From contig JAUXIQ010000167.1 in assembly GCA_030620925.1 (NCBI GenBank), positions 1 through 5,334 of the forward strand: a stretch of DNA of 5,334 nucleotides, written 5' to 3'. Source of the DNA: JAUXIQ01 sp030620925 [NCBI: Nitrospinota bacterium]. Lineage in GTDB: Bacteria; JAUXIQ01. The position numbers and the translations under genes are program-made. The notes under the pieces were generated by a model. That model did no database searches, was not told the DNA's origin, and saw only the letters and a list, made by a program, of their open reading frames with translations. Below are positions 1 to 5,334 of the stretch, piece after piece. How positions within the stretch are numbered: position 1 is the first letter of the stretch; each line of letters opens with the position of its first letter.

Positions 1-251
1 CGGGGGTGTTCGATGAAGCCGGAGGGGAGGGGCCTGTTTTTGGTGCGGGCCATGATACCGTCGACGTCGCGGTCTAAAAAATGATTGATCGCGCACGAAC
101 CGGAAGAAGCCAGGAAAGAAGCGATTCCCAGCATCAACAGGGTGCTCAGGGGCAGGTTCCCGCCGCCGGTGGCGAAGGCGGTGGCAACTGCGCTGAAAAC
201 TATGGAGGCCGTCAGGCCCGGTTTGAGCAAGGAGATATACTGATTCAGCAT
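1..251 (-). CDS. ctaB: Protoheme IX farnesyltransferase (heme O synthase), N-terminal part, cut by window edge
   Basis: Membrane UbiA-family prenyltransferase that adds a farnesyl group to heme B, giving heme O, the precursor of heme A for heme-copper oxidases. Only the first 83 codons are present; the 3' end lies beyond base 1. The N-terminus (MLNQYISLLKPGLTASIVFS) is typical of CtaB/CyoE. The diphosphate/Mg-binding motif N-x3-D-x3-D is intact at N56, D60 and D64, followed by the family hallmark RTKNRPLPSG at 69-78. Two hydrophobic stretches (about 14-30 and 36-56) are the first membrane helices. The ATG at 249-251 fits the family N-terminus; an in-frame stop lies upstream with no ATG, GTG or TTG between. 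The ribosome site is weak (GGTGGGAAAAGG close to the ATG). It is last visible in the operon, 110 nt after the subunit IIa-like peptide, and implies that the neighbouring enzyme uses heme O or A. Confidence 0.93.
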   Translation of the reverse strand, partial: MLNQYISLLKPGLTASIVFSAVATAFATGGGNLPLSTLLMLGIASFLASSGSCAINHFLDRDVDGIMARTKNRPLPSGFIEHP

Positions 252-361: not shown

Positions 362-496
362 CTATCCGATGCTCCACAACCTGGAGAGCACAGACCAGTT
401 TAAAAAGTAGAGCGCTGCGAACCAGGCCAGGAATATGAAAACCAGCACAAGCGTGCCCGGGGCTTTCATTTTTCCGCTTTTCTTTTCCTCGTCCAT
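362..496 (-). CDS. Small single-helix peptide resembling b(o/a)3-type oxidase subunit IIa
   Basis: A 44-residue peptide: a charged N-terminus (MDEEKKSGKMK), then PGTLVLVFIFLAWFAALYF as one membrane helix (about 13-32), then a short tail ending LSRLWSIG. The pattern of basic residues, P-x-GTL, helix, and a C-terminal LW-x-x-G resembles the cytochrome c oxidase subunit 2A family. In Thermus ba3 oxidase that subunit supplies the helix that subunit II lacks and packs against subunits I and II. A good ribosome site (AAAGGAGT, about 8-9 nt before ATG) supports real translation. It lies 75 nt after the subunit I gene and 110 nt before ctaB, all in the same direction. I see this as the third structural subunit; the family call rests on motif resemblance and context, not on an alignment. 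Confidence 0.8.
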   Translation of the reverse strand: MDEEKKSGKMKAPGTLVLVFIFLAWFAALYFLNWSVLSRLWSIG

Positions 497-571: not shown

Positions 572-2086
572 TCAGGCGATCTTTTCCCCCTTTAACAGAG
601 AACCCACTGCAAGGAGGATAAAGATAAGTGCGCCCACAAAGGCTATGATGCCGCCTATGCCTACCATCCCCAAGGCGCCGTATATCCTTTCGCCCAGGCT
701 CACGGGCAGGTTGGCGTCGGCGAAAGTGACGTCCCAATGCCGTCTGGGCACGCCCATGGAGCCGGCGGAGAGCATCCCCACCGCCATGATTACCACACCT
801 ATACTGAATATGTAGGGCTGGAATTTAGCCAGCTTCTCCCAGATGAGCTTCCGCTGGCCGACCAGCTGAATAATGTAGTAGGCTATGCCCATGAAGGCCA
901 GGGTCGTGCCCGCCACCACCGTGGTATGGAAATGGCCCGGTATCCTCAGGGTGTTGTGCGCCAGCATGTTTAATTGTTCGCTCCCCTGGATGACGCCGGT
1001 AGTCCCTCCGATAAACCCGAAAATAACGAAAGAGAGGGCCAACGACGAGAAACCGGGCGTTCCCCAGGGCGCCTTTCTCAGCCACTGGAACAGCCCCGTG
1101 GTGAAACCTTTCGCCCTCTGGGCGATCTCCACCCCCGCCGGAATGGAAAAAGCGTGTATCATGCTGCCCACCACGGCCAGGTACATGGCGTAACTGGTGT
1201 TGAAGATCCTGAAGGGCGAGTGGAGCCCGGGGTCCACCAGGAGGTGATGTATGGCTCCCAGGTTTATGAATGGCAGATAGAGGAAGAAGGCGATTCTGCT
1301 CAGCTTCTGGCTGGGGACCTTGGACCCCACGGTCAGCGTGCCCAGCAGATACCAGATGGCTATCATGGCGACCAGGTTTATCTGCTGGGCGCCGTGTCCG
1401 ATGCCCCAGTAGGTCAGCCTGTACATTGCCGGGTCGATGTTTTTCATCAAACCAACTGACCATAAAAGTGCGGGCACGTAGGTCAGCGCGCCGTGGGCCA
1501 GCGACCAGACAGCGATGATGGCGGCGCAGGCCAGACCGAAAGTCACCAGCGGTAACGCCCCATCGTACTTACCTTCCTGCTTGGCCAGGACCAAGGTTGC
1601 GAAGAACAACAGGCAGGCGAGCAAGGCTCCCACGGCGAATATCAATATGCCCAGATAATAGAGGGGATGGGCTTGAAGCGGCGGATAAGAGGTGAACATC
1701 ACATCCGCGTTGCCGGTGAAAACCATGATATCCGCTAAAGCCGCCCCGAGCAGCATGAGCACGAAGCAGGCCCAGGCCACTCTGGGCTTTGCCAGCCTGG
1801 CGTTCAACAGGATGGTAGCGCCGAAATATAGACCGGCTATCTCGAAGAAAATGATCCAGAAGATGAGCATGTTTAATCCGTGTGCCGTCACGAACCGGTA
1901 GAAGAACTCCTGGTTGAGCAGATGAACTGCAGGCCAGCGGGTGAGGGCTATAAGGATAGCCATGACGGTTCCTATAAGCAGGAACACTACTGCGGTCACG
2001 GCGTTGGTCATTATGAGTTTTTGTGCCGGAAGATGCACCTGTAACCCCGTGACGGAGCATGTTCTTAATTTTGCTTCTGCAGCCAT
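572..2086 (-). CDS. Heme-copper oxidoreductase subunit I, b(o/a)3-like, lacking the active-site tyrosine (possible CuA-type nitric oxide reductase)
   Basis: Integral membrane catalytic subunit, 504 residues with about 12 hydrophobic helices (roughly 30-50, 66-94, 103-125, 140-168, 178-205, 226-250, 263-283, 297-316, 346-366, 385-408, 424-446, 468-495). The ligand set is complete: H69 in helix II (TAHG) and H387 for the low-spin heme, H385 for the high-spin heme (GHFHTT), and H231, H280 and H281 for CuB. The helix VI motif reads HGAQQ (231-235), so Gln235 sits where B-family oxygen reductases have the Tyr of HPxVY. Ile274, six residues before the HH pair where I recall the C-type (cbb3) tyrosine, gives no replacement. 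Subunit II next door is clearly ba3-like, placing this in or near the B family. Reaction is therefore uncertain: NO reduction is my preferred inference, O2 reduction the alternative. The ATG follows the subunit II stop by 6 nt, with its AAGGAGT ribosome site overlapping that stop, so the two are translationally coupled. Confidence 0.93.
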   Translation of the reverse strand: MAAEAKLRTCSVTGLQVHLPAQKLIMTNAVTAVVFLLIGTVMAILIALTRWPAVHLLNQEFFYRFVTAHGLNMLIFWIIFFEIAGLYFGATILLNARLAKPRVAWACFVLMLLGAALADIMVFTGNADVMFTSYPPLQAHPLYYLGILIFAVGALLACLLFFATLVLAKQEGKYDGALPLVTFGLACAAIIAVWSLAHGALTYVPALLWSVGLMKNIDPAMYRLTYWGIGHGAQQINLVAMIAIWYLLGTLTVGSKVPSQKLSRIAFFLYLPFINLGAIHHLLVDPGLHSPFRIFNTSYAMYLAVVGSMIHAFSIPAGVEIAQRAKGFTTGLFQWLRKAPWGTPGFSSLALSFVIFGFIGGTTGVIQGSEQLNMLAHNTLRIPGHFHTTVVAGTTLAFMGIAYYIIQLVGQRKLIWEKLAKFQPYIFSIGVVIMAVGMLSAGSMGVPRRHWDVTFADANLPVSLGERIYGALGMVGIGGIIAFVGALIFILLAVGSLLKGEKIA

Positions 2087-2092
2087 ATTGAA

Positions 2093-2620
2093 TTACTCCT
2101 TCACAATTATTTTTCCCACCATCTTGTGATGGCCGATTCCGCAGTACTCATTGCATATCAGGCTGAACTCCCCTGCCTCCGTGGGAGTTATGTTGACCAC
2201 GAAATCGTAACCTGGAAGAATCTGAAGATTGAGGTTCATGGGCTGGATCGATAACCCGTGCTGGAGGTCGAGAGAGGATAGATGGAGTCGGTATCTTTCA
2301 CCTTTCTTCAATACCAGTATGGGATCGAAAGACCAGAGGCGCGAGATCAGGTAGGCGTCGCCCCCCGCAGGAGGCGCCACTATGGCCCTGCCCTTATCCT
2401 CGCCGACCTTGTACTTGGCTATAAAATCGTTGGCCTCCTGGGCGAAGACGGCGGGGGTTATCCTATAGGTGGTGGATGGGTTGTTCTGGCGGCCGGCTCC
2501 GTGCCAGGCGATCATGAAGATAAACATGAAAATAGCCCAGCATAGGGCCACGATGACCCAGATTTTCTCTTCCTTGGCGAGCGGTCGCCACCATATTCTT
2601 TCCGGTGCCGAGATACTCAT
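2093..2620 (-). CDS. coxB: Heme-copper oxidoreductase subunit II with CuA centre, ba3-like
   Basis: Electron-entry subunit, 175 residues. One N-terminal membrane helix (about 19-38) anchors a cupredoxin domain outside the membrane. All CuA ligands are visible: H121 (LQHGLS), C156, E158 (backbone ligand), C160, H164 and M167 in the motif CNEYCGIGHHKM, followed by VGKIIVKE. This C-terminus is strikingly like the Thermus ba3 subunit II. W96 (SRLWSFDP) is a plausible aromatic residue on the electron route. The protein is short, as in B-family enzymes, with no fused cytochrome c domain, so a separate cytochrome c or blue copper protein must donate electrons. The start has a strong AGGGGA ribosome site about 5 nt upstream. 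It lies 17 nt after the 54-residue peptide gene and 6 nt before subunit I. CuA shows that, if the enzyme reduces NO, it is not a standard cNOR or classical quinol-type qNOR. Confidence 0.95.
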   Translation of the reverse strand: MSISAPERIWWRPLAKEEKIWVIVALCWAIFMFIFMIAWHGAGRQNNPSTTYRITPAVFAQEANDFIAKYKVGEDKGRAIVAPPAGGDAYLISRLWSFDPILVLKKGERYRLHLSSLDLQHGLSIQPMNLNLQILPGYDFVVNITPTEAGEFSLICNEYCGIGHHKMVGKIIVKE

Positions 2621-2637: not shown

Positions 2638-2802
2638 TCACCTGATAAAAATTGGAACGCTGACCAGCTCCATGATGCCCCAGATGGTGTAAAGTATGGT
2701 GGGCACCACCAGACCTATCAGTATCAGCAACGAAGTGTCGTCGATAATCGCTTGCCAGAAAGGGATAGGCTCCTGGCCTGTTCCGTCCGTCTCCTGTTCC
2801 AT
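2638..2802 (-). CDS. Small single-helix membrane protein, first gene of the respiratory operon (unrecognised)
   Basis: A 54-residue reading frame with an excellent ribosome site (GAGGAGGT, about 7 nt before the ATG at 2800-2802). An acidic N-terminus (MEQETDGTGQEPIPFWQ) is followed by one hydrophobic segment (about 24-43, LLILIGLVVPTILYTIWGIM) and the tail ELVSVPIFIR. It ends 17 nt before subunit II and is the promoter-proximal gene, so it is very probably cotranscribed. I do not recognise the family. The conserved-looking VPTILYTIWG with a central proline suggests a specific packing helix. It could be an accessory subunit of the oxidoreductase or an assembly or membrane-insertion factor. The subunit IIa role is better filled by the 44-residue peptide at the other end of the operon. 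Gene call is firm, function unknown. Confidence 0.8.
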   Translation of the reverse strand: MEQETDGTGQEPIPFWQAIIDDTSLLILIGLVVPTILYTIWGIMELVSVPIFIR

Positions 2803-2916: not shown

Positions 2917-2930
2917 TTGACTTAAGTCAA
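2917..2930. promoter_or_regulatory. FNR/DNR-type palindromic operator TTGACTTAAGTCAA
   Basis: A perfect 14-bp palindrome with half-sites TTGAC and GTCAA separated by TTAA. It matches the TTGAY-N4-RTCAA architecture bound by Crp/Fnr-family regulators, including NO-responsive DNR/NNR proteins; the HcpR boxes of sulfate reducers, as I remember them, carry related TTGAC/GTCAA half-sites. It lies upstream of the respiratory operon and about 240 bp upstream of the divergent FmdE gene. Control of the respiratory operon by low oxygen or NO is inferred from this match; the regulator is not in the window. Confidence 0.6.
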
Positions 2931-3167: not shown

Positions 3168-3719
3168 ATGAATGATAGCAACGCCTTAATAGAGCAGAGC
3201 ATAACTTTCCACGGACACCTCTGCCCCGGCCTCAGCCTGGGCATAAAGATGGCCATGCGGGCCATGGAGCTTCTGGGCGTGGAGAGGGCCAGGGATGAGG
3301 AGCTTCTGGCCGTGGTCGAGATGGATAATTGCGCCGTGGACGGCATCCAGTATATCACTGGCTGCACCTTCGGCAAGGGCAACCTGTTCTTCAGGGATTA
3401 CGGCAAGGTGGCGGCCACCTTTTCCCATCGGGGAAAGAACGCCGCGGTGCGCCTCTGCTTCAAGCCGGGTGCCACCGACACAGAAGAGATAAACAGGGTG
3501 CGGGATGAGCCCGGGGGCAAGGAGGAGGTGGCGAAGATCATGTTGAATATGTCGGCGGGGGAGCTGTTCGTCGAAAAGGACGTGCCTCCTCCGGAAATCC
3601 CCACCGCGCAGATTCACAGCTCCATAGTCTGCACCTCTTGCGGGGAGGCGGTAATGGAGACCAGGATAGTGGAAATGGGGGGGAACCCTCATTGCATCCC
3701 TTGCTCGGAAAAGGCTTGA
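3168..3719 (+). CDS. FmdE-family protein with C-terminal zinc-binding module
   Basis: A 183-residue soluble protein of the formylmethanofuran dehydrogenase subunit E family (PF02663). The N-terminal FmdE domain (about 8-130) shows the signature FHGHLCPGLSLG with H15, H17 and C19, then DNCAVDGIQYITGCTFGKGN with C55, D58 and C66, residues lining the metal site and crevice described for this family. The C-terminus carries a second module, C155-x2-C158 and H175/C176-x2-C179, like a short zinc ribbon. No signal peptide or membrane helix is seen. In methanogens the name-giving protein accompanies formylmethanofuran dehydrogenase, but stand-alone bacterial members have no established reaction, and nothing here indicates methanogenesis. 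The ATG has GGGAGGTGG ending a few nt upstream. It is followed after 63 nt by the flavoprotein gene in the same direction, probably on one transcript. Family call is firm, function unknown. Confidence 0.92.
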   Translation: MNDSNALIEQSITFHGHLCPGLSLGIKMAMRAMELLGVERARDEELLAVVEMDNCAVDGIQYITGCTFGKGNLFFRDYGKVAATFSHRGKNAAVRLCFKPGATDTEEINRVRDEPGGKEEVAKIMLNMSAGELFVEKDVPPPEIPTAQIHSSIVCTSCGEAVMETRIVEMGGNPHCIPCSEKA

Positions 3720-3782
3720 TGATGATGGGAGGCGCAGTACAGCTGATTTTAACCGGCAGGAAAGGTAAGCGTGGAGGAGGAT

Positions 3783-4895
3783 ATGACACAGCTCTTTGAA
3801 CCGGGGACCATCAACGGCATGACCGTCCCCAACCGTTTTATGAGGTCTGCCACCGCTGAGCGCATGGCTGACGAGAAAGGGCACTACAGCGAGCTGCATT
3901 TCAAACATTACAGGGAGCTCAGCGAGGGCGAGGTGGGCCTGGTGGTTACCGGCCACGGGTACGTTCAGCAGGGCGGTATGGCGGGCGCAGGCCAAATCTG
4001 TATGGCCGATGATACAGTCATCCCCGGATACCAAAAACTAACCGAAATGGTCCATGGATACGATACCAGGATCGTTATGCAGTTAAACCACGCGGGGAGG
4101 CTGGCGCCCCCCGAGTTCAACCCGGGCATGGAGGTCATCGCGCCGTCGCCGCTCGCCAATGCCTTGAACGGTATCACCCCAAAGGAAATGAACGCTGATG
4201 AGATAGAGCAGCTCATAGAGTCTTACGGCCGTGCCGCCGGGCGGGTAAAGGAATGCGGTTTCGACGGCGTGCAGATTCACGCCGCCCACGGCTACATGGT
4301 CAACCAGTGGCTCTCCCCCTATTCCAACCGTCGAAACGATGATTGGGGAGGGGATCAGGAGCGGCGGACGCGCTTCGCCGTCGAGGTGCTGCGGAGCATG
4401 AGGGCGAACGTGGGCCCTGATTATCCGGTAATGATAAAGATGAACTGCGCGGATTTTTACGAAGGGGGGCTCACTACTACTGAGACCCGCTACATTGCCG
4501 AGAGGCTCTGCGAAGAGGGCATCGACGCCATAGAGATCAGCGGGGGCATTTACGAGGTCTTCGAGAGGATAATACGGCCGGGTCTCTACCCGCCAGAGGA
4601 GGAGCCTTACTACCTCCCCTACGCTGAAGAGATAAGGGACGCCGTCAGTGTGCCGTTTATGTTGGTGGGGGGCATGCGCACGCCGTTGGTCATGGAGGAG
4701 ATACTGGCCGAGGGAATAGCGGATTACATCTCCCTGTGCCGACCCCTCATAAGGGAGCCGGACCTCGTCAAGCAGATCAGGGAGGGGCGAACCACCGCCG
4801 CCGATTGCATCTCCTGCAACCTGTGCCTCATCGCCAGGAAAAAACCTCTTGTCAAGCAAACCCATCCGTTGGTCTGCGAGCAGGTGGAAAACTGA
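3783..4895 (+). CDS. Old Yellow Enzyme family NADH:flavin oxidoreductase (single domain)
   Basis: FMN-dependent TIM-barrel ene-reductase family (PF00724), 370 residues, cytosolic. Visible hallmarks are the N-terminal LFEPGTINGMTVPNRFMRSA, Q100 and H103 in QLNHAGR, and the active-site stretch HAAHGYMVNQWLSPYSNRR (H166 and H169 for substrate anchoring, Y171 as proton donor). FMN phosphate contacts are suggested by GGM (296-298) and by SLCRPLIREPDL near 317-328. It ends with cysteines C342, C345, C348 and C365, resembling but not matching the 4Fe-4S spacing of dienoyl-CoA reductase FadH, and it lacks FadH's C-terminal FAD/NAD domains. I chose the ATG at 3783, preceded by GGAGGAGG, because MTQLFEPG matches the usual family start; a GTG at 3771 would add four residues. 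Substrate (activated alkene, enoate or nitro compound) cannot be read from sequence. Likely cotranscribed with the FmdE-family gene. Confidence 0.92.
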   Translation: MTQLFEPGTINGMTVPNRFMRSATAERMADEKGHYSELHFKHYRELSEGEVGLVVTGHGYVQQGGMAGAGQICMADDTVIPGYQKLTEMVHGYDTRIVMQLNHAGRLAPPEFNPGMEVIAPSPLANALNGITPKEMNADEIEQLIESYGRAAGRVKECGFDGVQIHAAHGYMVNQWLSPYSNRRNDDWGGDQERRTRFAVEVLRSMRANVGPDYPVMIKMNCADFYEGGLTTTETRYIAERLCEEGIDAIEISGGIYEVFERIIRPGLYPPEEEPYYLPYAEEIRDAVSVPFMLVGGMRTPLVMEEILAEGIADYISLCRPLIREPDLVKQIREGRTTAADCISCNLCLIARKKPLVKQTHPLVCEQVEN

Positions 4896-4995: not shown

Positions 4996-5334
4996 CTAGT
5001 GGCTCCCTTCGAAGGTGTAATCGTAGTCCAGGTCGGCCCTGATATCTTCCGCGTCGATCCCTCTTTCCTGGAAGTAGCTCTTCCCCGCGGTTTCTGTCCT
5101 CTGGAGGGAATTATCGGGTATGACCTTGGTTACCCACAAATCCCTCATGAGCATGAGCCTGTTGAAGTGCTGCTCGCAGTAGCCCCTCATGTATCTTTCT
5201 TCAGTGCAGTTCAAGACTCTGCATATAGGCCTTTTCTTCAGGGCTATTCCATCGGCGTTCAGCGTTCCCCTGCGCCACCTTTTATAATGTTTGCTGCAAA
5301 AACCCACTGCTTCATGTTTACTCTCGCAGCCGGC
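4996..5334 (-). CDS. Protein with tandem Cys/His zinc modules, 5' end beyond the window
   Basis: The last 112 codons of a reading frame that stays open to the right edge; a GTG at 5305-5307 lies inside the first zinc module, so the true start must be further right. In window numbering the first module has C3-x9-C13-x2-H16 (GFCSKHYKRW) with its leading cysteine probably off the edge, and the second is complete: C38-x4-C43-x9-C53-x2-H56 (GYCEQHFNRL). Identical C-x9-C-x2-H spacing and the G-F/Y-C-x-x-H-F/Y pattern show a tandem repeat. Similar C-x4-C...GxCxxHYxR fingers occur in phage-type HNH and other small DNA-binding proteins, but no HNH core is visible here. The tail after residue 60 is non-repetitive and acidic. 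Nucleic-acid binding is inferred. It converges on the OYE gene with 100 nt between. Confidence 0.72.
   Translation of the reverse strand, partial: AGCESKHEAVGFCSKHYKRWRRGTLNADGIALKKRPICRVLNCTEERYMRGYCEQHFNRLMLMRDLWVTKVIPDNSLQRTETAGKSYFQERGIDAEDIRADLDYDYTFEGSH

Follow-up and report, generated by a model that had tools for sequence, protein, structure and literature searches.

We identify with high confidence an eNOR operon, at positions 362-2802 plus 1-251 of the window (the whole stretch of DNA analysed here, 5,334 nucleotides), for an enzyme of the heme-copper type that would convert NO to N2O. Subunit I very probably belongs to a NO reductase of the CuA type with its origin among B-family oxidases, judging by the residues of its active site and by its place in a phylogenetic tree. 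The protein is a further member of the described eNOR family, and the new details that it brings are modest.

Organization of the operon

2638..2802, minus strand: one-helix membrane protein of 54 aa, first gene of the operon (ORFs compared with relatives)
2093..2620, minus strand: subunit II, a cupredoxin with a CuA site (profile matches and CuA alignment)
2567..2569, minus strand: Glu18 of subunit II, invariant in 83/83 aligned rows, among which the window is counted twice (as WINDOW and as L004)
2120..2155, minus strand: CuA motif CNEYCGIGHHKM of subunit II (ORF translation, subunit II alignment)
572..2086, minus strand: subunit I of the eNOR (504 aa), in a short form that lacks the last helix (translation, profiles, tree, alignment)
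1880..1882, minus strand: H69, heme ligand of helix II (alignment)
1382..1396, minus strand: helix VI motif H231-G-A-Q-Q235, with Gln235 at the position of the cross-linked Tyr of oxygen reductases
1244..1249, minus strand: H280-H281, CuB ligands (alignment)
1154..1156, minus strand: H311, candidate proton-channel residue, invariant in eNORs (Thr in the B family, Lys in the A family)
926..934, minus strand: H385-F-H387, heme ligands of helix X (alignment)
362..496, minus strand: separate 44-aa gene for a C-terminal membrane helix, with an ATG after GGAG (alternative start GTG at 497-499)
1..251, minus strand: start of a heme o synthase gene (CtaB/CyoE), truncated at the contig end (profile matches)
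2917..2930, no strand: palindrome TTGACTTAAGTCAA, a CRP/FNR-type box 831 bp before subunit I
3168-3719, plus strand: FmdE-like gene with a zinc-finger tail (profile matches)
3771-4895, plus strand: NADH:flavin (old-yellow-enzyme-type) oxidoreductase gene (profile matches)

On the minus strand, the order of transcription is 54-aa protein, subunit II, subunit I, 44-aa helix protein and heme o synthase. Small ORFs precede subunit II also in the relatives that we looked at. We see no link between the operon and the FmdE-like and NADH:flavin oxidoreductase genes beyond the divergent upstream region that they share. Further along, a partial ORF (4996-5334) contains two similar Cys/His-containing stretches, GFCSKHYKRW and GYCEQHFNRL, and has no match in Pfam or NCBIfam.

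Active site and metal ligands

A first-pass annotation of the sequence had pointed to HGAQQ at the site of the catalytic Tyr (1382-1396), and in the translation of 572-2086 (minus strand) codons 231-235 fall exactly on 1396..1382. Translation and alignment also bear it out that the CuB ligand H231 is retained, with Gln235 in place of the crosslinked Tyr. This helix VI site is Gln in all 44 other eNORs of the alignment, and Tyr in every B-family (15/15) and A-family (5/5) row.

The six metal-binding histidines that the annotation had counted are all present. H69, H231, H280, H281 and H385 are invariant in the 44 other eNORs, and H387 is kept in 42/44. In two of the 44 rows, the Thermus eNORs L021:9983-11665 and L006, a Lys replaces His as the helix X ligand of the low-spin heme (GHFKGT).

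Subunit II, encoded upstream of subunit I at 2093-2620 (minus strand), has its full CuA site, as had been claimed: H121, C156, E158, C160, H164 and M167. A CuA pattern lies upstream of subunit I in 81 of 86 eNOR loci, the window included; these 86 are the best 80 of at least 364 relatives from a genome scan, plus L004 (the window), L005, L006 and L019-L021. The pattern missed L035, L054, L099, L100 and L104, of which L054 nonetheless has a subunit II-like ORF there.

The same annotation held that the gene is not decaying, and we agree: Q234, Q235 and N237 are found in 44/44 related proteins, as are Y246, Y270, S308, H311, P316, E320, H377 and N378. Conservation of the motif across the family rules out a decaying oxidase.

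We then considered where else a tyrosine could be. The B family is marked by a helix VI Tyr at the fourth residue past its CuB His; here Q235 occupies that place. In cbb3 (C-family) oxygen reductases, a Tyr precedes the HH pair by six residues. Six residues ahead of H280-H281, subunit I has Ile274, in accord with the earlier reading, and thus lacks the C-family mark; the CcoN-like protein of the same genome does carry Tyr at this place. The annotation had also raised the case of a tyrosine from another helix that reaches the CuB ligand in a model. Our check was made by sequence only: the cbb3 place holds no Tyr, and the Y270 of helix VII, which all eNORs in the alignment share, stands ten residues before HH (versus six for the CcoN-like Tyr). 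At that spacing, helix geometry probably keeps Y270 from cross-linking, and we reject a moved tyrosine.

Assignment to the eNOR family

Subunit I matches Pfam COX1 (222 bits), and its matches to four NCBIfam oxidase models stay far under their cut-offs (e.g. 78.6 versus 670.75 for CtaD). Its best sequence matches in the PDB are ba3 enzymes, with E about 1e-45.

The genome scan gave at least 364 confirmed relatives, of which the best 80 were kept. The motif forms part of one of the two scan patterns, so scan-derived proteins alone do not prove that the motif is conserved. Two motif-independent searches agree on Gln. With tblastn against 72,556 plasmid records, 58 records matched: 12 at 49.8-55.1% identity, from Defluviimonas, Thermomicrobium roseum and Thermus thermophilus, and 46 at 33.0% or less. 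Three of the 12 were read and all have H[GS][AS]QQ[IV]N; the five read among the 46 all have Tyr. In 244 genomes from a single class, the second search returned 31 places in 30 genomes at 44-58% identity, then none above 36%; all of the 30 high-identity places that were read have Gln, and the 11 lower-identity loci fetched (L169-L179) all have Tyr. Over all rows compared, the lowest Gln type is at 43.5% identity and the next row, of Tyr type, at 36.0%, below which come Tyr-type oxidases and CuB-less paralogues.

The first-pass annotation had proposed a tree with A-, B- and C-family oxidases and the described NOR families. Ours was run with A-family, B-family and eNOR rows, and places the protein among eNORs. 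It has 74 rows (IQ-TREE, LG+C20): 45 eNORs, 15 B-family and 5 A-family oxidases and 9 CuB-less paralogues, and samples 35 of the 86 eNOR loci and 9 of 30 class-search loci, hand-picked for spread; L171 and L175, both of Tyr type, were fetched but lie outside it. The 45 eNOR rows, including the window protein (P0001) and L147, are on one side of a 99/98 branch. The B-family rows form their own clade (100/99), as do those of the A family (100/100). Within the eNORs, the window protein groups with those of SAR324 (L033) and Spirochaetia (L054) at 99/93, and the next group outward consists of one Chloroflexota and a Thermomicrobium eNOR (95/92).

L147 connects the clade to a characterised enzyme. 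Its source genome (G213) has a 326-residue ActC stretch identical at 326/326 positions to PDB 6f0k_C, from which G214 differs at two. As 6f0k presumably comes from Rhodothermus marinus, we take G213 to be this species and L147 to be its eNOR. The eNOR family paper, by Murali et al. (PNAS, 2024), reportedly deals with the enzyme of R. marinus. PMC12569097 cites it too and states that its set of 67 NOR sequences comes from there. In the excerpt of PMC11388526, which cites Murali et al. 2024, eNOR is biochemically characterised and related to B-family oxidases.

As far as the excerpt of PMC8756737 goes, a conserved Gln at the position of the cross-linked Tyr is the recognition mark of eNOR subunit I. 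Its Table A4, within that excerpt, gives Glu for cNOR and qNOR, Asn for sNOR and CuANOR (bNOR), Asp for gNOR, and Gln only for eNOR. Neither Glu, Asn nor Asp stands at this position in subunit I, which has Gln; it is neither a cNOR nor a qNOR, just as the annotation had concluded.

Two other identities were weighed at this point. That subunit I belongs to another B-family-derived group (bNOR, sNOR, gNOR or nNOR) or to a new NOR subfamily seems to us extremely improbable. The excerpt of PMC11388526 does relate bNOR to B-family oxidases and has sNOR, gNOR and nNOR proposed so, but the residues of Table A4 separate them from eNOR, and the window protein is nested among eNORs in a tree that holds no sNOR, bNOR, gNOR or nNOR sequence. 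The subfamily call comes from the signature together with the R. marinus anchor; signature and tree both say eNOR, and a new subfamily is rejected.

Very improbable, too, is a B-family (ba3-type) oxygen reductase that lost or moved its Tyr and still reduces O2. Such an enzyme would agree with the nearest solved structures, which are B-family oxidases, with the retention of all metal ligands and with the invariant Tyr270 on helix VII. However, all 15 B-family oxygen reductases keep their Tyr and stand apart from the clade that includes the window protein, Y270 is probably out of cross-linking reach, and the Gln form persists across many phyla, which argues that it was selected and is not a loss.

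We therefore read the protein as very probably a CuA-type NO reductase, which the annotation had put forward as a possibility, on account of its signature Gln, its place in the eNOR clade and its CuA subunit II. The subfamily, which it had left open, is eNOR by the Gln signature and by the clade shared with the Rhodothermus enzyme. Its warning about an automatic 'cytochrome c oxidase' label was apt: the labels of plasmid-borne relatives read 'cbb3-type' or 'b(o/a)3-type' cytochrome c oxidase subunit I, and many eNOR homologues are apparently misannotated as cytochrome c oxidase genes according to the excerpt of PMC8756737.

Predicted structure

The AlphaFold model of subunit I, built with an alignment of 50 sequences (input from 49 of the best 80 eNOR loci), has a mean pLDDT of 87.9 and a pTM of 0.89. 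Searched with Foldseek, it returns ba3 entries and 7deg in the first 21 rows, the B family ranking first; VIA-align scores oxidases of the B and A families equally, at Z about 41. There is no NOR structure among the 50 VIA-align rows listed, which is not evidence against a NOR.

Proposed mechanism and proton path

Electrons would enter at CuA of subunit II, continue to the low-spin heme, which H69 and H387 bind in subunit I, and from there reach the active site, made of the high-spin heme (H385) and CuB (H231, H280, H281). At this site two NO, the presumed substrate, would be reduced to N2O and water. The cross-linked Tyr of oxygen reductases supplies an electron and a proton to O2; because there is no O-O bond to break, it would not be needed here, and Gln235 replaces it.

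Protons would probably be drawn from the cytoplasmic side along a modified K-type path, through Glu18 of subunit II and S308, H311 and Y246 of subunit I, the latter three being invariant in the 44 eNORs. At column 311, eNORs have His, the B family has Thr (15/15) and the A family Lys (5/5); we take this Lys to be the K-channel residue of A-family oxidases. Glu18 presumably equals Glu15 of ba3 subunit II, at the mouth of the ba3 K path. The conservation of Glu18 and of column 311 makes the modified K-type path a likely candidate in eNOR, in line with the one proton channel listed for this family in the excerpt of PMC8756737. With protons taken up from the cytoplasm in this way, the reaction of the window eNOR may conserve energy.

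Likely heme type and probable source of NO

The genome of the window is 89.47% complete, in 445 contigs. COX1-family matches in it are the window gene, the CcoN-like protein and a 177-aa frame. The Tyr six positions ahead of HH is retained in the CcoN-like protein, so the organism probably has an oxygen reductase in addition to the eNOR. The short COX1/CcoN-like frame of 177 aa (L003:1501-1902, contig C32) is not a full oxidase; short COX1-like matches occur also in G043.

Heme A synthase (CtaA) was not found in this 89% complete genome, with 7/14 control genomes positive, which makes heme o or b the likely active-site heme. Nor were NirS (2/14 controls positive), the multicopper oxidase domain PF07732 for NirK (8/14) or NrfA (1/14) found in the same 89%. 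The NO is thus probably supplied externally, formed by chemistry or made by the product of a gene within the tenth that the assembly lacks. The search for NosZ was silent in this genome, as in all control genomes.

Among relatives, NirK-like genes are near eNOR in 4 of the 86 loci (best 80 of at least 364, plus six), one of them at 33% identity. In a Thermodesulfovibrionia locus, a copper nitrite reductase gene above the NCBIfam cut-off (L029:1987-3009) directly precedes the eNOR operon. Around one Thermus eNOR copy we find genes for Rrf2, DUF542 and cytochrome P460, with Rrf2 and DUF542 following the copy.

Upstream box

The sequence TTGAC-N4-GTCAA at 2917-2930 is a perfect 14-bp palindrome, the only such site in the window, and occurred 0 times in 200 shuffles. 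Its sequence is that of the core of the published HcpR consensus; the outer flanks depart from the full form. In the excerpt of PMC1274295, this consensus applies to delta-proteobacteria and also stands ahead of norB in a cyanobacterium, and HcpR is described as a regulator of nitrosative-stress genes.

Of 77 other eNOR loci, 37 have the related pattern TTGAY-N4-RTCAA at a distance of 650-1,700 bp ahead of subunit I, versus 0.034 expected per locus, the background being the rest of the same, mutually related loci (33 sites in 1.02 Mb). In 32 of these 37, it lies at 817-943 bp. The 77 result from the 86 loci (best 80 of at least 364, plus six) after omission of nine that have less than 1,700 bp upstream or are the window copy. 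The other 40, including L033, L054 and all tested Nitrospirota, Chloroflexota and Gemmatimonadota, lack the box; most boxed loci are Pseudomonadota by title. The FNR-type box may thus mark the regulation of eNOR operons, above all among Pseudomonadota.

For the CRP family, an Arg at one position is linked in the excerpt of PMC1274295 to sites of TGTGA rather than TTGAC type. A single protein of the genome is clearly a CRP-family regulator, and it has Arg at that specificity position, read by eye; as it fits the TGTGA type, we identified no regulator for the window box in this genome.

An eNOR in a non-respiratory role, for example detoxifying outside NO without energy conservation, or acting mainly on another substrate, is in our view unlikely. 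It would suit a genome in whose sequenced 89% we found no nitrite reductase, and a box that matches the core of the site of HcpR, a nitrosative-stress regulator (excerpt of PMC1274295). Against it, the residues proposed for the proton channel show the conservation that an electrogenic enzyme would call for. This alternative concerns role more than chemistry and overlaps with our assignment of an eNOR operon.

Separate C-terminal helix and CuB-less paralogues

The 44-aa protein matches what is, in most eNORs, the tail end of subunit I itself. The tail is a gene of its own, next to a short subunit I, in 14 of 86 eNOR loci, and is fused in the other 72 (best 80 of at least 364, plus six). The split loci are the window, L027-L030, L032-L034, L046, L054, L061, L070, L101 and L104. 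An automatic test had flagged 17 loci, of which L006, L021 and L037 are fused; L032, L046 and L054 were settled on second inspection, and the call for L020 was taken from the alignment. The 14 do not form one clade, L070, L101 and L104 nesting among fused Gemmatimonadota-type rows (100/100). This scatter in the tree suggests that fusion or fission of the helix probably occurred repeatedly.

Several loci contain a second subunit I-like gene without CuB (L030:2321-3691, L034:5590-7029, L027:9719-11227, L046:9640-11205 and others, with one near the eNOR of L033). These paralogues keep three heme His and one CuB His (G-x-GH-x-x-Q, HYH) and have lost the HH pair. They occur in 16 of 86 eNOR loci (best 80 of at least 364, plus six), with 22 matches over all loci including duplicates; in L118 the paralogue is on a different contig from the eNOR of that genome. 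Nine rows form one clade with long branches, whose place beside eNOR is unsure according to a warning of the tool, and the model of one paralogue folds like an oxidase. It is perhaps an electron-transfer partner. Our limited literature search met no description of CuB-less heme-copper paralogues, which is no proof of their absence in print.

Taken together, these details might describe a split-helix, multi-subunit form of eNOR spread over several phyla, here with heme o or b (not heme a), electrogenic, and respiring or detoxifying the NO of neighbours, with the CuB-less paralogue as a further partner of eNOR in some relatives. As a whole, we offer this reading tentatively and consider it somewhat doubtful.

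Significance

A gene of this kind shifts the reading of a genome from that of an oxygen respirer only to that of an NO reducer. With eNOR genes frequently labelled as cytochrome c oxidases, the metabolism of NO and of N2O, a greenhouse gas, is probably undercounted. The FNR-type box and the invariant H311 and Glu18 offer recognition marks for eNOR operons, the two residues being testable elements of the proton path.

Comparison with known systems

cNOR and qNOR are not known to have CuA. The reaction proposed for the window enzyme, NO to N2O, is theirs as well, but they differ by Glu at the Tyr site (excerpt of PMC8756737) and by their kinship with C-family oxidases (excerpt of PMC11388526).

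The B-family oxidase ba3 of Thermus thermophilus (1ehk, 3s8f) has a similar fold, with a Foldseek TM-score of 0.88 over the model against 3s8f. It shares with subunit I the metal ligands and the positions of S308 and Y246. Its Tyr, cross-linked to a CuB His, is Gln in the window protein, and a Thr of its K path is His311.

Closest in the tree are the eNORs of SAR324 (L033) and Spirochaetia (L054), at 59.8% and 61.0% identity. Both have the separate helix gene, as in the window, and neither has an FNR-type box upstream.

The Rhodothermus marinus eNOR (L147), at 45.6% identity, differs in that its frame of 571 aa is longer, the last helix being a separate gene in the window. The two are alike in the change of Tyr to Gln, in HGxQQ followed by IN, in the CuA subunit II upstream, in the six His and in their clade.
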